Source of the DNA: Polytrichum commune
Lineage: Eukaryota; Streptophyta; Polytrichopsida; Polytrichales; Polytrichaceae
Length of the DNA: 64,000 bases
Direction: 5' to 3'
Assembly (NCBI GenBank): GCA_950295325.1
Contig: OX485803.1
Span: 38,641,554-38,705,553, forward strand
Part shown: in pieces, positions 4,715 to 37,100 of the stretch
How positions within the stretch are numbered: position 1 is the first letter of the stretch
How the letters are laid out: each line of letters starts with the position of its first letter
Position numbers and translations under genes: made by a program
Notes under the pieces: model-generated
The model's input: the letters and a program-made list of their open reading frames with translations, nothing else
Told to the model about the DNA's origin: nothing
The model's database searches: none

Positions 4715-6583
4715 TCAAGGCTTCAGTGCCAAAGCCAACCCAATCTTGGCAGTCTTATCTAGGGCCTTGGTGTCCACCTCTCCAGAAAATGTGATCAACG
4801 ACTTAGGCCTCCATTCATGCTGGAGCAAAGCCGCCAACTTTCCATGGTTGTTCAACCGTGCCTTCACTGTGGTTAGGACATCCAACTCGTAGAGTCCACC
4901 AACAGTAAAAGTGTTTTCATTCTTTGAGAACTTGTGGGCTATCTCTGCTGCAACAGTTGTCCTTGATACAGGACTCACTGTGTGTAGGTAAGATGCTTTC
5001 AACAAGTCTCCCTTCTCAGCCCTGCGTAGAGAGCAACGAGGTCGCATTAGGTCACAAATATTTTTTATGTTCACAACTTGTGCAAGCTTATGGTGTCCAC
5101 GTATACATCGAGATGCACTTCGTATTAAAGGTGGGATATCTTGCAAAGTAGGCTTACAAGATGAGAGAGGCGTTGAAGTCGGGCTTCACAAAGCCAACAC
5201 CAGCATTGTACTTGATGAGAGACCCAGAGGCAGTGTCAAATGCAAGTTCACCACCCACTGAGAAGCCTTCGCTTCCAATAGCTCCGGTAGCCTCAACAAT
5301 TGGAGCAGGTGTCAATCCAATGCTTCCAGTAATTCCGGCATACTCTTGTCGGTACTGAAGCTCAAGCTGCACAGCACAACCAAAAACTTAAACGGGACAG
5401 CTTTAACTTTTGTGATCCTTTACGTTCAATTACTGCTGTCCACGATGTCAATAGCATGCTGTTCTAATGGAGAGCGCTGCGGTACCTTGCCAGACTTGTG
5501 GTCGGGGATAGTGAAACTGAAGATGCTCTTGGCTCCTGGTGCAAACTCATCAACAGTGACAGTCGCAAAGATCTGTAATGCAATGGAGCCCCAACATTAA
5601 TCGTATGACATTCAAATCAGCTCCGAATTAGATCTTAACCCAGAAATCTTGATATTTGCTTCAGAGAAACGCCACAGGATTCAACAGTAAAATATATTGG
5701 AGAAATAATTCATAAGTGGAGAATATTCTATTGATTCCTACGTTTGACTTGGTGTCAACTTTCACGTCAGCTGTTATGTTTTTGTTTTTGAAAGATGTGT
5801 TCACATCGCCAGAAAATCCCTCTCCCCTCTTGGTTCCAGCAGAGGTGAATGCCTGCCACCAACAAGGATTAAACATTAGAGACTGCGATCACAAAGCAGA
5901 ATAGGGTGTTGAAAGAAGTGAACTAGCAAAGAATTGCGCTCGTTACCACAAGCGCATAATCAAACTCTTTAAAACTATCACATTCCAACAAGAGCTCGAA
6001 CCATCATTCAATAGATAATATGCATAACTCCTAAATCCATCCTAGAGGTGGGGTTAAAACCTCACCAATCCAGATTGGGTATTGGTGGTGATCGTAAACT
6101 TCTGGTCATATGTGTAGTCCTTGGAAAGAAGATCTGTGCACAAAAGAAGAGTAAGGCTGTATGAGCCTCAACCCAAGCTCACACAACTCGAGTATGATAA
6201 GCATATGTAATTCCCCTATTTTAAACTAAAATATACTAAGTCTTTATATACAACTTTGACCCCTGAGAAATGTGAATCACAGTCTTTATGTACAATTTTG
6301 ACCCCTCGCTGAGCACTGGCCCAATACATCTTTGAAATGCACTGTGAATAAAATAATATCAACCCAAGAATGAGTAAAGACTCGTGTCTCGCAAGTAGTG
6401 AGACTGTTAATCTACACTTTCCTCTTTTCACTCTGAAGCCACAAACGTAAGCCAGGGCCACATGCCAACCTAGACAATACGTGATACATATAAGTAGAGC
6501 GTGAGACTTCGTGAGGGCTTTCATTAAAACGAACCTTTGGTCTTCTTGCCAATCTCCGAGTAGAAGCCTGGTCCCTTGCCCAT
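4715..6583 (-). CDS. VDAC: Voltage-dependent anion channel (mitochondrial outer-membrane porin)
   Basis: Six exons on the minus strand join in frame: 6583-6535, 6133-6066, 5852-5742, 5572-5486, 5366-5158 and 5021-4715. They give 831 nt, 276 aa plus stop, which is the usual VDAC length. All introns are GT-AG. The N-terminus MGKGPGFYSEIGKKTKDLL is the plant VDAC N-terminal helix. The C-terminus with LQHEWRPKSL, FSGEVDTKALDKTAKIGLAL and final LALKP is diagnostic. The protein is a 19-strand beta-barrel passing ATP/ADP and other metabolites through the mitochondrial outer membrane. In the family porin signature (YELDVLTTVKARLNN) a V stands where P or S is usual. The start was chosen because it gives the conserved N-terminus; the ORF running in from upstream is out of frame with the family. 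Confidence 0.95.
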
Positions 6584-16500: not shown

Positions 16501-16578
16501 AAAAGCAATAACAAAACAATAAAAACTCCCTTGAATAAACATACCAAATACCCTATCAAGCACAACAAAGAACACCAT

Positions 16579-16890
16579 ATGGCCTCGGCCTACCGGTCTC
16601 GCCATAAAATAGAACTAACAAGATATATACACTACCACTCCTTCAACCCCATCATCTACCCAATTACAAAACCTATACACCAACATACCAAACCCATACA
16701 CTACCTCTCCAAATACGCACAAAAAACAATACTTGCCCTACCCAATCTATTCACCACAAGTAAATATACCTTAATAAAGTATTATAAAATGATAAAGAGA
16801 AAACCAAAAGTAAAAAAATACCTATGATATCACTTCATCAATAAATTAACTCTATTACAATGTGGAGATATTGAATTTAATCCGGGACCG
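16579..16890 (+). pseudogene. Retrotransposon leader peptide with a 2A-like motif
   Basis: The frame from the ATG at 16579 (MASAYRSRHKIELTRY...) runs ~82 codons rich in K, H and Y, hits one TGA at 16825-16827 and continues in the same frame to LTLLQCGDIEFNPGP. The stop may be a mutated TGG. Residues D-I-E-F-N-P-G-P at 16867-16890 fit the 2A consensus DxExNPGP exactly, with the usual leucine-rich lead-in and a G before the D. 2A sequences cause the ribosome to skip the final G-P bond, so the leader would be released from the downstream polyprotein. Function of the leader is unknown. Confidence 0.7.
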
Positions 16891-17131
16891 ATGCCAAATA
16901 TACTACACACACACCCAACATACATACAAACGCATAACCACCCACCCCCACCCCATATGATATATGCCATCATTGTAACCATAAATCCCTCAATAAACAT
17001 ATGCAACAATATATTGGCTCAACCTAACGCCTATCACTTTAACATAGAAAGGACTAACACACTAATTAACAAGTTGGCTCACCTCACCAACCCTCCCGAA
17101 AAGGCATATCCTAACGCAACATCCATACACT

Positions 17132-18825
17132 AGAGTTATTGAAACCTACCAAGACATAATAGAACCTCCGAATTCAATACATAAAGAATTATACACTTTC
17201 ATATATAGTTTCGAAACACTCCCAACTCCAACTGTAATCCAAAGAAAATTTCCATTTTTACCAAATAAATTAATACACGAATCCCTCAGATGTTTTGAAA
17301 CACTAAATGGATATGCCCATCCACCCCCACTCCTAAATATACCCACCCAAACAACTCGAATAAATAACAACACCAATCAGGAAACAAACACAATAACCTG
17401 GAATGCTTCATCACTTAATACAACCTTACCTAACTTACAAAGCCTCATTACCTACACTCAAATAAATACAACAATCATCACCATCCAAGAAACCAAGCTC
17501 ACAGCAACAAAATTCACGAAATATATCCAAAACTTATTTCTACAATACAAACTCATATTTAACAACACACACGCACTCACAAAATGTATCCATCAACAAA
17601 TGCCCTATACATCTGGAAGGGGCGGGTTGCTCACACTTATACACAACAAATATGCATTCCCCGGTAATATCACCAAAATCCCCACACCAGTAAACATTTC
17701 ACCGTACCTCCAAATAATACAAATAAACAACCAACCATTATAATCATGGCTAATCATCCACATGTACATGCCCACACACTTAGGGCCGCTTTACACCTAG
17801 AGGCCGGGCCAATTTCCCTTGAGGCCGATTGCACAAAATTTCAGCCTTTTTTGGGTTGGAGGCCGGCCTCTACTACACATTATAATAAGATTATACCGGG
17901 GGCCAATTTTCCCATATGTAAAGGCCCTCGGGCCAAGAAGCCAAGCTGATTCAAAAAAATTAGCCTAATCCAACGGATGTAGCATAATCTAAGATAGAGC
18001 CTTTAGATTCCACATAATCCAATGGATCTAGTTCACTTTAAAAAATTATACTTTATTTAAGAATATTTTTTTAGTGGAATATGACATTGGCCTCTAGGCC
18101 AAGAATTGGCCTTCCATTTTGGGTGCACCCAATTCAACGAGCTCGGGCCGTGTCATAACATACATTTTTTAATTTAAAAAATCATACCACCAAATCGGCC
18201 CGGCCTCTAGATGTAAAGGGGTTGGGGCCGATTTGAGCCTTTTGACCAATCACAAATGAGGATTTCAAGCCTCTTACACAACGAATTGGCCCGGCCTCTA
18301 AGTGTAAAGCGGCCCTTAGAAGATATTTGATTCATCCTTAACATAAAAACGACAATGACCAGTTAAATCAATGTACACCCATAACACATATACATCATGT
18401 GCAAAGACTTTAACCGAGACATTGCACTTATTGGTAGACAAAACGATAACCTCCACACACCACCACAAGAAGAAGATATACAATGGAGGACCTTTACTAC
18501 ATTCATGAATTTAGAATATATCCCAACAAACACCACATTCTCAAAACAAGGTGGTAATAACTATACTTCCACCAGCTTGATTGATGGTTTTTACATCAAC
18601 TCGCCATATAACAATAAATATTCTTCTACAACGAACACCCATATAGACCTAAATTCAGACCACTATCCAATTACCCTACATATACCATACAACACATTAC
18701 TAACAAGACTCATACTTCCCAACAACATTACACAAACTAGGATCCTAAACCCAATACCACCTGAAAACCTCGAACAATTTAATATTAATTTTTCTGAAAA
18801 AACTCCATACAAATCAACGATTTAA
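17132..18825 (+). pseudogene. APE-type endonuclease domain of the retrotransposon (interrupted)
   Basis: Motifs of the exonuclease-endonuclease-phosphatase fold appear in order. TWNASSL is at about 17396-17416, and IQETKL, with the catalytic glutamate, at about 17483-17500. SGRGGLL is near 17615 and HMYMP near 17760. DFNRDIALIG follows the MITE at about 18406-18435, then LIDGFYI near 18580 and NSDHYPI, with the catalytic D-H pair, near 18655. The usual GDFN motif reads KDFN here. The domain is broken by a frameshift near 17131, a stop near 17743 and the 533-bp MITE at 17783-18315. In an active element it would nick the target DNA. Confidence 0.7.
17783..18315. mobile_element. MITE inserted in the retrotransposon's endonuclease domain
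   Basis: 533 bp with ends GGGCCGCTTTACACCTAGAG and its inverse (CTCTAAGTGTAAAGCGGCCC), flanked on both sides by TTA (17780-17782 and 18316-18318). The 3-bp TTA duplication and G/C-rich terminus fit PIF/Harbinger MITEs. The APE reading resumes after it, so it inserted after the retrotransposon. The interior differs from the GGGCC-ended copies at 14855 and 47486, though terminal bases are shared. Confidence 0.75.
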
Positions 18826-21145
18826 TCACTCTTTTTGAAAACTACGATCATCTTATAAATAACCAATGGCAAAATGCATGCGACTCACTTGACATCATAA
18901 TAAGAAAAAATTCACAAAACATAGAAGAAACATGTAGTGCAGCTCCAACACCACAACTTACAAACCATACGGCCCAACAAGGCAGCTTCTTACCACGTAA
19001 ACTAGCTAAACCATGGAAAAAACACCTAGCCACGTATCACCAAATTACGAAAACTATATATATTACCAAAAACGACCCGAACTGGCTTACACATCCAATA
19101 CTAAATGAAATATATAACCACCAACATGTACAAATTCCAACCCACCCACAACAAACACCTTACTAAACGAATGGATAAACGAAATAACAGCCATTGCAAA
19201 AATAGCCAAAAAACAAACATGAGCCATTATTACAAAATACACTAAAGAATGCATACTAAAAGCAATATCAAAATATAAACAACTCTATGAGAAAAGTCCT
19301 AAGAAAGTAAACATGAAAGTCTTCAGAAACTCTGAAACTTCATCCCTAGATTCTATCATTGATAGATAAAATAATATCTTAACTAATTCCGAAGACATCG
19401 CAAAAGAAATACACATACAACAATCCATTAATAACCATCCCACAGTTCTTACATGTGAACATCAAACAACACACCCACAACATTGTACGTGTAATGTACG
19501 ACAATACTCATGGTACGACCTCGATGGCTTCACCATAGACCGGCGTGGAGAACCTCAAATTCCATTATATACATACTTCAATCCGGAAACATATGACTTA
19601 TGTCTAAAAAACCTAGGTAATAACAAAGCCCCTGGCCTAGACAGAATTCCCAATTCAATCCTAAAAAACATGCAACTACGTTTTTACAAACTATTGTTTT
19701 TATTCTTCAAACATCGCTATAAACAAAAATAAATTCCTACATCATAGAAAATGAGCCTCACAGTTTTACTTTCTAAGAAATGTAATCCATCACAACTTAC
19801 GAACCACAAACCTATTGCTCTAGCCAATATCATATATAAACTTTACACAAATACTTTGACATCCATCCTCTCGGCCTATAGAGAAACACACCAAATATTA
19901 CACAATAGCCAAGAATGATTCAGAGCAAAAAGATGAACATTCAGACAACTCCAAATACTTATTGCTGCATTGGAAGATGCAAGATTCACATACTATGATA
20001 TATACATTCTATACATAGACTTCAAAAATGCATTTGGCTCTATTGACCACACTAGACTCCTAGTCATATAGAAGGATCTTGGATACCCAAACGATGTCAT
20101 AAACCTAATTGGTAACATATACTCACAATTCACTATCACATTCATTGGATAACACTTTGGTAAAATACAACTCATTCCCATTCAAAGATGAACAATACAA
20201 GGAGACACCCTAAGCCCATACATATTCATCATATTCTTAGAATCCTTCATTAGGTGGTTACAACAAGGAAATAACGGATACACATTTGGAACATCCAAAG
20301 TACAAATCTCCTCAGCAGCATATGCTGACAACTTAGCAGCAATTGCCAACATATTAAAATCACTACAAGTACAAATCAACAAACTTGACAAATTTTGTGA
20401 ATGGGGTGACATGGATCTTGGAATTCCCAAATGCGTAGTCACTGGATGCCCGAACAAATCCAAAGTGAACCCCCTAGCATTCAAAACTCTAATTCAAGCT
20501 ACAAAAATAAACTACATGAACGAACATATACTAGTCTTGAGTCAAAACGAACCATACACATACCTGGGTATAAACCTCGCCCCCTCACTAAAATGGAAAA
20601 CACAAATACACACCACCACCACCAAAGTCATAAAACAATGCAAGGACCTTGTAGCTTGTCCAGCTCCTATGAAACAAAAAATTAATATGGCAGACACAGT
20701 TATACGTGCTGGAATCGCATACATCTTCTACGTTGTACCGTACTCCCTACCTGCCATAAAAAACCTTGACGAAAAGATTATAGCCCTCCACAAAACAATA
20801 TGTGGGCTACCAAAATGCACGTCAAACATAGCCACGCAACTCCATCATGACTTATTTGGAATAGAAGTTTTTTCACTAAAAAATGCCTACTTACGATGTA
20901 TAGGCGAACAACTACAACATGCCCTTAATGACACATGTAGACTTGGGAAAATCTACAACGGACTACTACAATTTATACTAGCAACATTTGGTGGCGCCCA
21001 AGAAATACCTCGTATCAAATATCACCATTGTGTCCGATCACCTATAACTAGAGCACTATTTCTACTTAAAAAAGAAGCCGGAGTTCACCTAAAAAGTATA
21101 ATGGACAACTTCATATTTAACACCTCCCCCTTTGAGAACGTCTGA
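18826..21145 (+). pseudogene. Reverse transcriptase domain of the retrotransposon
   Basis: Conserved RT blocks can be read. NHKPIALANIIYKLYT lies at about 19801-19850, FKNAFGSIDH (motif A) at about 20020-20050, IQGDTLSPYIF (motif B) near 20196-20228, and AYADNLA (motif C) at 20318-20338. The catalytic YADD box is YADN (second D AAC, one G-to-A step from GAC). Several stops fall where W or G would be expected, for example TAG in the block before the first motif. An open frame of 244 codons (20411-21145) covers the thumb and following region. It would copy the element RNA by target-primed synthesis; this copy cannot. Confidence 0.75.
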
Positions 21146-21163
21146 ATGAAATAAGCGCAAAAC

Positions 21164-22603
21164 ATGCATGGCCTAAATCGTAAAACTTCGCTTAAATTAC
21201 TACAAAAGCTACTATTGCACAATATAACTGAACTAAGGCAAATCACTCTACCCAATGGCCTTAATATGATGTGCCCAAATGATTTTAAAAACTATCATTC
21301 CAACCCTACCAAACTAATCAAAAGCGCACTAAACATTGCTCAACAACTATTATATCACCCCTCTTCCCCCCGGCAATGTCAACAACTATGCATGCACCAT
21401 CACTCCCAAAAAATCCTAAAAGACAACTACATCATAATAAACCACAACATTCTGCCCAGACAACCCGATCCTCCAATTCACCCCCCAAACCCACCTCACC
21501 CACACCACCCACCCCCACCAAGAGAAGTTCCTAAAGACCCTAGACAATTCCCTATCCACACAATCATTGACCATAAAAAACGACAATACACTACCTCCAA
21601 TGGAATAACGAAAAACGACACATCATATCTATGCCAATGGATAATAAGAAATAATAACACCTATAACAAATGGCGAACCCAAAGAGACTTATTCCCTTGG
21701 TACGACGCTAACACTTGTGCACATAATACCGGACTACTAACTCAATACTATACCAAAAGACAACACAAACACTTCTCGAACTTAATAAACGCACACTTTA
21801 CCACATAACAACAATGAGATACAAGATATGTTACCCCTGCAACAAGTATCCCATTGGCACATATTTCTATCGATGAATGTAACCCCGAAAGTTATATAGA
21901 AACCACCACCAATACTATCCAAACACACTTTGATATTGCCCACATATATGAAGACAATGGATGGCACCTCACCACCATCCCTAAAACTATACTACATTGG
22001 CTATGGAAACAATACCAACTCGCAAAAAACACCCCACACGGACTAGAACCACCTACACAATCATTTGAAACTGAAATGGTATGGTTATACCAAAGATACA
22101 AATACCGTATTCCTAAAAATGACCCCCTAAAACTAGCCCAATATACAATACCAACTCCAATATTAAACTTTCTCACTACATCATTCAACATCAGCCATTC
22201 ATATTTTTCATCCCCAATCACATGCCCTACACAACTCAATCAATTTTACTCTCCATTCTCACGAGATAAAATATTTGAATCCTTAGGGAAAGCCTTTGAC
22301 CATAAATGGAAAGGAATAGGCTATGCCCACCCCAATAATGCAACAGACCTACAAGAGGCTATACATTGGGCTCATCTTGCTGCCAAAAACGACTCAAGTA
22401 CCATCGCAATACTCATTTCACTTGATACAAATTGGTACCAAAACTTCAACCCACACTCCAGCCCATTCCCATACACACGTATTATCGCCCACTTTGTTGT
22501 AGATACTATCACATATGAAGAACCTACTATACCACTAGAACTTAACATGCCCATGAAAGAACTCTCTACGCTACAAATACTTTGCATACACCACCAAAAA
22601 TAA
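21164..22603 (+). pseudogene. Linker region between RT and RNase H
   Basis: Two long open frames (21164-21808 and 21854-22603) of A/C-rich, P/H/T/N-rich protein continue the retrotransposon reading after the RT. No domain is recognised. Low complexity is clear around residues rich in P and H near 21470-21520. In related elements this stretch is poorly conserved. It is unlikely to be a separate gene because it lies inside the element and shares its composition. Confidence 0.5.
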
Positions 22604-22799
22604 CTACATAGGAACCTATGAACATCTAAATCAACTCGCCCATATTATAAATAATCTCTCAATACCACAACTATATACACAAATTGCCACACATATCCCC
22701 CCCCCAACACACATGTCAATCCCAGCAAAAAGTGGTCCAAACTAACTTATCCCAATATCCCCACACTCAATGAAACACCTATGCCCCAACTACCGGCCT

Positions 22800-23290
22800 A
22801 CCAAACTAAGTTACCATTAAAATTTTATCCACAATTCAATTATTACACTGATGGTTCATTTTAAAAACCTAAACTAATCTCCCCGGGAGTGTGGAGAAAA
22901 GAAACAGTAGGATATGGCATTTATAGCCCTAAAGGGCTTAGCATAGCCAAAAGACTACATGACTACCAGAATATCCTACGGGCAAAAATGATGGCCATCC
23001 ATAAAACACTATGAATTATCAATACCCTATATCCAAATGAACATGCATACATATTCACCGATAGCCTAAATGTACTATATCTACTAAACACACAAATTAA
23101 ACATCCCATACTACACAATAGTCACCCCGACCAAATCACACTTGCCTCCATGGTACAATTGCTCCAAAACCATTCCCAACCAACCACATTATACAAAGTT
23201 AAAGCACATGTTAACATAGACGGCAACGAACAAGCAAATAAATTAGCAAAAGAAGGACTGGACCTTACCCATAGAAGTGCCATACACATA
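22800..23290 (+). pseudogene. RNase H domain of the retrotransposon
   Basis: YYTDGSF (22841-22861), GYGIYSP, a RAKMMAI segment near 22981, IFTDSLNVLYLL near 23050 and KVKAHVNIDGNEQANKLAKEG near 23196-23260 are the ordered RNase H motifs. Two active-site positions appear lost: E reads K in the AKMMAI segment, and the final acidic residue reads N in QANKLA. Both fit single G-to-A changes. A TAA directly follows DGSF. The domain would degrade the RNA strand of the RNA-DNA hybrid. Confidence 0.7.
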
Positions 23291-23334
23291 TAGTAACACG
23301 CCCATGCCACACCTTACTACTACCAAAAAGACAA

Positions 23335-24346
23335 ATGGCCTCCATGATAGACACGCCAGACAAAGGCCCCGTTAGATTTCTAGAAAAACAAATCAAAAAA
23401 TGTGACATAATAAACAACTTAGAAACTATGGCCATACAAACCCCCAATATTTGTAAATGGACAAGCAATGAAGACATTGACAAAGAACTTTCCAATGAAT
23501 TTTGGAATAACCCTACTATTACGGACAAGCAAAATTCATGCCTTATCAAATTTCGCACTAGAACCTATATGGGCCAAGCCAGAAAACAAACTTTCTTTGG
23601 TAGACAAAGATTCCCTATCATCACATGTCCTATTTGTAATTCATACGAACCTGATACATGGCTACATGTACTACTCACATGTAGGCAACAACATATACAC
23701 TCACTACACGTTAAAAGACATAACAAAGAAGTATGGGAAATCAGAAAATTACTAATTTCTTCCGAAAAATCTCGATGCTACACTCTTATGAACGTTGGTA
23801 CCTTTAATGACAACCCCCAAAAAAACACCGTCCCTAACTGGCTATTACCCTGCACATGTAGAATCCAAAGATGCCACTGTAACTCTCGATTTAGACCCGA
23901 CATCCTTTGCATTAAAAGGGTTACCATATCAAAATGAACCCCCCGCAAACATAGACCAAACACTTACCATACAATTCATTGAATTCACATATTGTAATGA
24001 TAGATTCTCACTAGAAACACTAGAAACTGAAGCCAACAAATACAAACCACTGATAGAAAACATTGTTGCTTTAGGCTGGAAAATTGATATGCTCATTGTT
24101 ATTATAGCAAGCGCCAGAGCCGCAACACACATTCCATCAATGAAACTACTTGAAGACAAATTTAAACTACCTATGTCATCCATCCGAAATACATTCAAAA
24201 ACATCAATACCATTGCCATACAATACGCCATGTCCATCCTCCTCCACAAAAGAAAACTAGAAAACCACCAACCTCTACCTCAAATACAAGACCCCCTAGT
24301 CGTACCAAAGTTATATTTGAAAATCATCATCTCCACACAACACTGA
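23335..24346 (+). pseudogene. Zinc finger and restriction-like endonuclease of the retrotransposon
   Basis: The first frame (to 23937) has CPICNSYEPDTWLHVLLTC (C-x2-C ... H-x4-C), a typical finger of RLE-bearing elements. It also has CHCNSRFRPDILCIK with the R-P-D motif at 23893-23901. A one-base shift in the A run at about 23913-23917 moves the reading to the second frame (to 24346). That frame continues with IEFTYCNDRF (from 23978) and a following NKYKPLIENIVALGW block. PD followed by an acidic residue and a K/KY block is the RLE active-site pattern. The basis is motif reading only; a structure or profile search would settle it. Confidence 0.65.
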
Positions 24347-24446
24347 TGTCTCAACTTCGCACAAAACAAACCTACACCGATTAACCCTTATATATATATA
24401 TGTATATATATGTACTCTATTCTTGTTACTGGTTACTTGTGACTAT

Positions 24447-24584
24447 AGTGTCTACTCTGGAAAGGGGGAAGTAGTTCTTTACTTCTATTCTTATGTCCCG
24501 TGGACATAGAGGTCTAGGGGTGGAATGAACAGACACTTCATTCACGTTGGTCCCTACCCGGGGATCGAAGTTTCTTCTCTTCTC
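24447..24584 (+). repeat. Conserved 3' tail of the retrotransposon
   Basis: Starts ACTATAGTGTCTACTCTGGA and ends GAAGTTTCTTCTCTTCTC before the target duplication. It is almost identical to 50842-50950 (inverted) and clearly related to the tails at 11062-11206, 41440-41588 and 52843-53003. Conserved blocks are GAAAGGGG, a TGTCC..GTGGRCAT pair able to form a small stem, and ACACTTYATTCACG. It is probably recognised by the element's reverse transcriptase. Confidence 0.75.
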
Positions 24585-24596
24585 TTGTTTTGCACC

Positions 24597-34135: not shown

Positions 34136-37100
34136 ATGGTGAAAGCAGTGCGTGTGCACACAATTGGTGGCCGCCACCATCTCCAACTGGAGGATGTGGA
34201 GCTGCCTCATCCTGGATGCAATGAAGTTGAAGTCAGGCATACTGCCATCGGGTTGAACTCCCCAGACATTGATGCCTGCAAAGGGGGAGGTCACCACCCT
34301 GCACACTCTACATTCACCCCGGGCTTGAGCGCTGTCGGCGTCATCACAGAACTGGGTATTTTTCTCACCTCGTTGTTCAACCCAATTCCGGGATCTTGTC
34401 AACTGTAAGGACATCAGTTGATAGTTTGCATTTGTTCTGTTGCCAAAGAACTGGGTAAGTCGCACACCTCATTGTTTAACCCAATTCCGGGGTCTTGTCA
34501 AAACATAAGAACATCATTTGATGATTTGCATTTGTTCTGTTGCCAAAGAACTAGATCATCATCTCACACCTCATTGTTGAACCCATTATCCGCGCTCTTG
34601 TGAATTATAAGGACTTCAGTTGATGCTTTACTATTGTTCTGTTGCCAAAGAACTGGATTATTCTCAACCCTCATTGTTTAACCCAATTCTGGGCTCTTGT
34701 GAAACATAAGGACATCAGTCGATGTTTTACATTTGCTTTGTTGCCAAGGCCGAATCATCTCTCAATCGTGAGGATAAAGTTTGAAGGGCTATGAGTTCGG
34801 GAGTAAATCTTATGTTACGTCTATTTATACTCTATCTATTATGGCTGCATCCCTCGATAATATTATATATTTCACTCAGCTGTGAAGAGGATTAAACCGT
34901 ACCCTCTTACTGCGAACAGATTTACTACAGCACATTCAAGATTCATAACATTCTTGATTAATTGATGTGGTCTCCTGGCGCAAATGAGGTAATTTTTAGG
35001 TTTTCTGGATAACCTAAGAATGATACCATGTGGAGTACACCTCTTCAATTGAATCTTGATAGACATGAGAAGGCTTCATGTCTAAAGATAGGTAACAATG
35101 AGGTGTCGACTAAGGGGAGCTTGCCACTTGACTATCCTCGGCAAGAAAAAATATGCTGGAACGTCCTGACAAGGCTTAAGAATGTTATGTTTGAGGGTAT
35201 TCGACATGAATTCTTTGTTTGAATTTTTATGTTCCTGGCTGACGCAACATTGGCCAAATTGTGTCTCGACACCTCTGAGCTCAAATCGCTTGTACCGGCT
35301 GGTCAGGGACTGGAGTGATCAACCACCGAATTGGCCAACGGGTGGGCTACGTGAATGCACCCAACATGGGGGCTTTCAGCGAGGCAATCATAATCCCTGT
35401 GACATGCTTGATTCCGCTACCCGACCATGTAACCGATGAAGAAGCTGCTGCTCTCCTTTTCCAAGGTCTCACAACATGGATGCTCTTGAAGAAGGTCTGT
35501 ACACTCCATCGCGCGGACACGATTTTGGTGCACAATGCTGCCAGTGGGGTTGGAGCCCTGATCTCCCAGTGGGCGGACGCTCTGCGAGCCATTGTCATTG
35601 GAACAGTGGGATCAAGAGACGACGTCGAACGAGCCGAAAAGAATGGATGTAAAGAAGTGGTGCTTCGAACGGACAATGGCCCCTCGGGCTTTGTGGATGA
35701 TGTGAGAGAGCTCACTGGTGGGGAGGGTGTTGCCGTCGTGTTTGACATGGTGGGAAAGAGTACTTTTACTGGATCTCTTGATTGTTTGGCTCCGAAAGGC
35801 TTGTTGATCAGTCTTGGCGCAACAGAAGGGGATGCTCCAGTACTCGACTTCAAGGATGTTGCAGGTGATTGTGTGCTTCAACTACTTTATCTTTCCTTAC
35901 TCGTATGGTTGATTGCAATTCTGCAGTCTTGGCTCTTGCTACTGCTCTATATATGTGTCAACCTACATGTCAACCTACAGTCATTGAGTGAACTGGGTGC
36001 TTGAAAACTGGGATTACATGTGGTTGAAGGCTTCAACTACCTCATCTTCCCTTGTATGATGGATTGAAATTCTGCAGTCCTGGCACTTGCGATTTCTCTA
36101 TCTTGTGTCAACTTACATGTCCCTAGAGTCATTGAGTAGACTGGTTGCTTGGAAATCTGGGAATTGCAGGCGATTGATTACGAGAGTCTTGGCACAGTTT
36201 TCTAATACTTTACATCTGATGTCAACTTACCTGTTCTTAGGAGTCATTGAGTAGAGTGGGTGCTTGAAAGTCTTGGATTACAAAGGTCATCAGGTCATTA
36301 AAATTTACATACAGCAATTGAGTTGTAGGAACGTCTATGGTCTGCATATTTTCTGAAAATTACTGTCATCAGCGATTACACCATGACTTCAAAGAAGAAT
36401 ATAGTCGTATGAACAGTTAATGGATCTAGTATATAGCAAAAATCATACTTGTCATGATAATAGGAGCTTGAGGAACGTATCTTAATGTGTTATTTAATCT
36501 AGTGAATCCATTGAACCACCTGGAGCATCCTGGTTCAATTATGTTACTAATTTCTCAGGTCAAGACTGTATACATTCTCTTGGCTTGTATCGAATTCATT
36601 CACATGAGACGGTCAATACAGAGGTCTATGATGTAGTATGGTCAATATACCCTGCTTGAGCGTAGATCAGCTCCGAAGGTTAGATTACTGGTATGGCGTT
36701 TCGCCCCAAATTACACACCCTTGAAAATCAAATGTCACCTTGTTGAGAAAAGCTCCATCGTGAGATGGAACCTAAGTATAAACTGAATCCTTTCAGAATC
36801 AGCTAAGCATCATGCTTCTGCTAAGCACAAATGCACTGTTTAAGGTTTAAGATTTAGGGTTTATCAAGGATATAGCATTTGACTTTGTTGTCTCTTTGTT
36901 TCATGAACTGTATGTGCTCAAGAATATCATGCAAAATGCAAGGTGAAGTCGCATGAACTCGAAATTGGGTACTCATATTAAATCAGTTCACACCAATGCA
37001 ATGTCTGGAAGTCAGGAGAGGAATCAAGAGAATGACATGCTCATTCTGGTCAACCGGTCCATTGAAAATTTCCTTTATTTTTATAACAAGTTTGTCCTTG

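Follow-up and report, generated by a model that had tools for sequence, protein, structure and literature searches.

A decayed LINE copy in the analysed window

The window, i.e., the whole stretch of 64,000 nucleotides analysed here, carries on its forward strand a decayed copy of a LINE of the dual-endonuclease type, which, counting a nested insert, extends for about 8.1 kb (16506..24591). The copy was delimited by blastn against L021, a better-preserved genomic copy, and the comparison returned matches of 82-87% over positions 16506-16930, 16920-17783 and 18317-24591. At the 5' side, a basic leader beginning with MASAYRSRH and showing a pI of about 10 (16579..16845) is interrupted by an in-frame TGA at 16825-16827 and is followed by the 2A/StopGo-like site LTLLQCGDIEFNPGP (16846..16890), in which the predicted break falls between the G and the last P. 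Translation of positions 16579-17100 gave MASAYRSRH...KKYL, the stop and then YHFINKLTLLQCGDIEFNPGPMPN, with NPGP ending at 16890, and the 2A-like motif that the initial annotation had placed at the start of a LINE is indeed present. The TGA within the leader and the interruption of the 2A frame before the APE domain are additional features of this copy that went beyond that annotation.

The region between the 2A-like site and the APE domain (16891..17386) has lost about 150 bp just 3' of the site, after position ~16920, which are present in the copies on C6 and C7, and a frame switch near 17100 separates the tblastn pieces. The first part of the APE domain (17387..17782, tblastn), containing WNASSL and IQETKL, shows one stop in the aligned stretch; the domain is then split by a nested MITE-like insert of 541 bp (17779..18319) bounded by 36-nt terminal inverted repeats that are 94% complementary. 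Beyond the insert, both blastn and tblastn pick up the LINE match again at 18316-18317, and the second part of the APE domain (18316..18687, tblastn) bears three stops in the aligned stretch. The reverse transcriptase (RT; 19568..20605) and the RNase H (22829..23266) were located by tblastn with seven and two stops respectively, the YADD box of the RT being changed to YADN. Between them lies a PCIF1-like domain (21851..22597), recognized by PF12237 with an E value of 4.8e-9 and 36.5 bits versus a cut-off of 31.1. The 3' portion (23608..24295) contains a CCHC knuckle together with RHN, RPD and IEF/KY motifs, which make it REL-like at motif level, and a frameshift near 23900.

The LINE copy in the window is dead. 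Since the TGA, the deletion, the frameshifts, the stops in RT and RNase H and the insert leave the 2A-like site out of frame with the endonuclease at this locus, the meaning of the site has to be decided on other copies. Elsewhere in the window, positions 35279-36004 hold a 241-aa open frame which, by eye, looks like a quinone oxidoreductase/MDR-type gene.

The 2A-like site in other genomic copies

A DNA search with positions 16579-17750 returned at least 75 matches in the genome (40 of 343 candidates scored), while the leader-2A-APE start of L025, used as a protein query, returned at least 119 matches, these being the scored part of 975 candidates. A segment of 480 bp was taken from each of the 119 leader and 2A copies and used for motif scoring; these rows are not independent, as they include near-identical copies, and the C36/C6 and C50/C4 pairs show no difference at all within the fetched segment. 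The NPGP box was in frame in 109 of the 119 copies and D[VI]ExNPGP occurred in 97, confirming on a genomic scale what had been noticed at a single site. The core octapeptide (D/G/C/N)(V/I)ExNPGP was found in 99 copies as well as at the window site. The remaining 20 copies, devoid of the extended motif, comprise ten with K at position 14 of the motif (p14; nine DIK and one DMK), three with HPGP and seven with other changes or an unreadable box. Within the first 20 loci, H was present at p16 in seven, five of which read HPGP, and three (L017-L019) had no motif. On a midpoint-rooted tree the site changed 13 times between canonical and non-canonical forms.

Copies with long frames (at least 1000 aa, with a stop-free matched stretch) were counted by hand and amounted to 26 of the 119 rows, with NPGP in 25, the full motif in 19, DIKPNPGP in six and DIELNLGP in one. 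The succession of leader, 2A and APE proposed in the initial annotation, broken in the window copy, is maintained in one open frame in L021, L024, L025 and L149-L153, and in L151 and L152 the frame also extends through the RT. In L151, 2454 aa of the fetched stretch are stop-free, and the longest open frame among the copies measures 2924 aa. L024 is a full-length element (8270 bp) that ends in a short TATC tail and is flanked by a 12-bp target-site duplication; its identity with L026 is 98.7% over 7.9 kb, which suggests that this LINE family moved recently. Six copies (L119, L121, L125, L127, L137 and L140) form a DIK subfamily that combines GGDIKPNPGP with frames ranging from 1076 to 2924 aa.

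Across the 407.8 Mb of the genome, the exact DNA pattern encoding DIEFNPGP was found a single time and its control never, while the pattern for DIExNPGP returned 267 genome sites (141 and 126 on the two strands) and none in the reversed control. Among the 100 of these 267 sites that were listed, 37 fell inside the set of 119 copies and 63 outside. We read 20 stretches covering 21 of the 63 outside sites, chosen for variety and not at random, and all 20 matched the post-2A region of L151 or of a type D copy (see below) with tblastn E values of 3.1e-8 or lower for the better query; several of them show stops or frame changes. The host is a land plant according to its LEAFY-like loci (three in the genome, one of which was read), in agreement with the plant LINE originally proposed; it may be a moss, and seven large contigs make up about 406 Mb of its assembly. 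The 2A finding stands and is larger in extent than first stated, concerning a conserved in-frame site in an apparently recently active superfamily of land-plant LINEs.

Domain organization of the elements

In the longest frames the order of the domains is leader, 2A, about 200 aa without an assigned role, APE, RT, PCIF1-like, RNase H and finally CCHC plus REL-like. RVT_1, RNase_H and PCIF1_WW scored over the Pfam cut-off and Exo_endo_phos under it in the copies that show a match. The RT of L024 matched RVT_1 with an E value of 8.3e-31, and the best solved relatives of the RT among the matches listed were R2 proteins (E 2e-31), ahead of other chains; the RNase H of L024 matched PF00075 with an E value of 1.7e-13. 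For the APE domain, PF03372 returned an E value of 8.2e-5 in L025, corresponding to 22.9 bits and under the cut-off of 24.5. A match to xth had an E value of 0.01, far below its own cut-off. The APE profile matched solved structures weakly, exonuclease III (E ~0.05) ranking behind an unrelated GTPase (0.039). The motifs WN, QET, GDFN and IDGF, which we read as those of an APE endonuclease, were invariant in eight out of eight copies.

The same invariance in eight out of eight copies was observed for CCHC, RHN, RPD, IEF and NKY in the C-terminal domain, where we take CCHC, RHN, RPD and IEF/KY to be motifs of a restriction-like endonuclease (REL). Comparison of the C-terminal profile with solved structures found no REL, and the assignment is one of motif level, expressed here as REL-like. 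The dual-endonuclease character implied by the initial annotation is supported by the APE domain, and a REL-like second endonuclease is suggested by motifs.

Five sequences matched PCIF1_WW, with scores between 33.5 and 41.6 bits (cut-off 31.1), the domain of L151 being located at 4864-5730. Comparison with solved structures gave a weak PCIF1 match, with E values of 0.37 for the profile and 0.55 for a single sequence. PCIF1_WW matches were found at no fewer than 150 genome places (150 scored of 697 candidates), and 37 of 65 such places (C1, and C2 as far as the last listed 2A site) had an exact 2A site 3-8 kb upstream in the same orientation, as against none in either control. With PCIF1 (Pfam PCIF1_WW) the elements share this over-cut-off match and an aligned FSSP...FGSLG stretch. 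The NPPF catalytic box of PCIF1, presumably to be expected at one site of the element, is replaced there by AHPH, AHPN or AHPK, although the placing is uncertain; the replacement makes methyl transfer by the PCIF1-like domain doubtful. To our knowledge a PCIF1-like domain has not been reported in a LINE, and a literature search for PCIF1 in transposons returned nothing relevant among the matches listed. Viral contigs were also scanned twice, with the REL and the PCIF1-like alignments, and no relatives were found.

Leader groups and tandem 2A modules

The leaders could be sorted by eye into four groups, namely A (ASAYRPRH...), B (Lys-rich, with LLLLSG or LLLLCG), C (LLLAQCG and the like) and D (YYTWNNSTLILLHG). 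The corresponding motif segments are GDIESNPGP and GDIEPNPGP in group A, LLLLSGDIETNPGP in group B and LILLHGDIEQNPGP in group D. The groups are not all unrelated, as L157 of group C has SAYRPR in common with group A. In group D, LSTILKNLP follows the 2A in place of MPNIL, and the two residues right after NPGP in type D copies are LS, LT or SP rather than MP. The type D copy L174 keeps the motif and shows 42-43% identity to L151 from before the APE domain to the C-terminus, in an alignment made of two stop-free pieces with a frame change between them, the C-terminal part of L174 being in another frame.

Some copies carry more than one module. In L169/L174 (G000:C2:36080097-36089199), a single frame of 2131 aa, which begins behind a stop immediately preceding the first module, contains two 2A modules with a duplicated post-2A region and no Met at the junction. 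In L166/L176 (G000:C1:66446714-66451000), four NPGP boxes, three of them without Glu at p14, lie in one open stretch of 591 aa followed by decay. A duplication of the leader unit (ASAYRPRH...LPNLF) was also noticed in L024 (381-1150) and in L009/L010, the first unit of L024 being without a 2A.

Sequence constraint and fit to the 2A rule

Selection was evaluated on 20 stop-free representatives differing by more than 10%; L039, L141 and L147 were dropped from the 119 copies, and indels shift the ungapped blocks in L044 and L115, which slightly inflates the differences. The dN/dS values were 0.33 for the leader, 0.13 for the 12 codons from -20 to -9, about 0.10 for the octamer and about 0.10 for the 36 codons after it. 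As the downstream part is equally constrained, the strength of constraint does not by itself mark out the 2A, whereas its pattern does. All 20 representatives agree in the two Leu, G, D, I, G and the last P, for each of which more than one codon is used; the E and the N are retained in 18 of them, the first P in 19, and the x position is filled by P, S or L. The lead-in upstream of the motif reads LL.CG in 19 representatives and LLKGG in the remaining one. Forms such as LELLKCG and LALLQCG occur, and LLLLSG, LLLLCG or LLLLGG are found among the group B stretches.

This arrangement resembles the Leu-rich classes of viral 2A/StopGo sequences (motifs 2 and 6 of PMC12846837), with which it shares the core (D/G/C/N)(V/I)ExNPGP, a lead-in ending in (A/S/C)G, D at p12 and the H variant at p16; the lead-in was compared by eye with the class given in section 10 of that survey. 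The difference lies in the carrier, here a LINE, and in the host, here a land plant. According to the same source, the p16 H variant retains more than 95% activity and E14Q shows 56% or 26%, while K at p14 is absent from the functional variants listed there. The DIKPNPGP subfamily with long open frames may skip poorly.

Proposed mechanism and alternative explanations

On the basis of the sequences, a large superfamily of land-plant dual-endonuclease LINEs very probably encodes a 2A (StopGo) sequence of functional type, and the site most likely frees the basic leader protein as a working StopGo/2A. In the proposed mechanism, a single long frame would open with a short basic leader, and a ribosome reaching ...CGDIExNPG^P would fail to join Gly to Pro, releasing the leader, and would then continue with the APE-RT-PCIF1-like-RNase H-REL enzyme polyprotein. 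One frame would in this way yield a separate ORF1-like leader, and a second ORF would not be needed. In L024, the ATGs at 441, 846 and 1053 are all in the 2A frame, and the one at 846, in the strong context ACAATGGC / GATACAATGGC, starts a leader of 100 aa with a pI of 9.9; a further ATG at 1118, in another frame, opens only 12 codons. The leader probably binds RNA, as its charge suggests. Skipping, and any advantage it may bring to the element, are what we infer from the motif, its frame, its pattern of conservation and the order of the domains.

The enzyme polyprotein might instead arise by internal initiation or reinitiation at a Met after NPGP, the motif representing nothing but the surroundings of a start codon. 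A Met codon does directly follow the NPGP place in 114 of the 119 copies, but its context is poor (C at -3 in 114 of 114 and C at +4 in 113 of 114), the place is taken by LS, LT or SP in type D copies, and the fixed upstream LL..GDI with its free x would be left without explanation; we consider this origin very unlikely. Given the poor context and the type D copies without Met, separation by the 2A would be the simplest way to free the enzyme. A chance match in decayed DNA, to which the state of the window copy might lend itself, was rejected as having a negligible probability, in view of the 267 sites versus none in the reversed control and of their in-frame position in related elements.

The NPGP box might also be a conserved structural piece of an uncleaved N-terminal domain, a view favoured by the equal constraint on the 36 codons after it and by the spread of the DIK subfamily without Glu. 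By eye, however, quite different leaders precede one common box and downstream region, an arrangement that suits a release junction better, and the substitutions follow the 2A rule, N to H included, so that a purely structural role seems improbable. Somewhat less improbable, yet still unlikely, is that the box was an active 2A in the ancestor but has since become dispensable and begun to drift in some branches of the family. The 13 changes on the tree and the six DIK copies, whose frames measure 1076-2924 aa, would fit such a drift, but the full motif is kept in 19 of the 26 long-frame copies, its loss being the minority state, and H at p16 belongs to the functional variants (PMC12846837).

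If the working 2A is accepted, the findings can be extended tentatively to a natural land-plant StopGo system in a young dual-endonuclease LINE superfamily with a PCIF1-like domain, where the 2A would serve as a junction for the exchange and multiplication of leaders. Several leader groups would then be mounted on one enzyme body, and the two to four leader-2A modules per frame seen in some copies would allow the release of several leaders. We place this extension a little short of an even chance, because two leader groups share SAYRPR and because the tandem modules sit in partly broken copies.

Relation to known systems and implications

The occurrence of 2A sequences in non-LTR elements was reportedly described by Heras in 2006 and by Odon in 2013, and the Dualen/RandI group is said to have been described by Kojima and Fujiwara in 2005. 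In the LINEs known to carry a 2A, it is located between the N-terminal part and the enzyme part of the protein, and the elements studied here likewise have it inside the LINE protein. They differ from the known 2A-bearing elements in their land-plant host, in the combination of APE and REL-like domains with RNase H and a PCIF1-like domain, in their varied leaders and in the tandem 2A modules of some copies. That non-LTR elements of animals and trypanosomes can carry a 2A is established (PMC11512398, PMC4981915). Dualen/RandI elements encode both endonucleases (PMC4640811, PMC3636483) and are recorded from green algae (PMC3747384). As judged by domain content, the present elements resemble them in joining an APE endonuclease with an RNase H in one element, and may share the PD-(D/E)XK-type endonuclease as well, to judge by the REL-like motifs. 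The accessible portions of those descriptions (PMC4640811, PMC3636483, PMC3747384) concern green algae and mention no PCIF1-like domain, whereas the present carriers belong to a land plant and possess one.

In the consulted part of a 2022 review, land-plant LINEs are given as L1 and RTE only (PMC9033089). 2A peptides function in plant cells as tools (PMC4981915), whereas a recent survey, in the sections available, reports no evidence of their natural use by plant viruses, in which 2A motifs are almost absent and six cases are taken as misassigned hosts (PMC12846837). Among the matches listed, the titles and abstract openings of the literature contained no land-plant or Dualen carrier of a 2A, although a prior notice in the survey by Rao (2025) is possible. 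In the literature searched, the presence of a 2A in a non-LTR element is known, and a land-plant, dual-endonuclease carrier was not found.

If the elements skip, StopGo would occur naturally in a land plant, at hundreds of sites in a single genome, and the 2A would replace a layout of two ORFs in an element that has two endonucleases. The natural variants (P, S, L or T at x, N to H and E to K) could be assayed for the tolerance of plant ribosomes, and the leaders would offer a place to ask whether they are swapped as cassettes. The DIK subfamily, which either skips or lives with a fused leader, represents a natural test of the need for Glu at p14; three of its six long-frame copies are identical over 480 bp, and the others share 96.5% (one copy) or about 80% identity (two copies) with those three.
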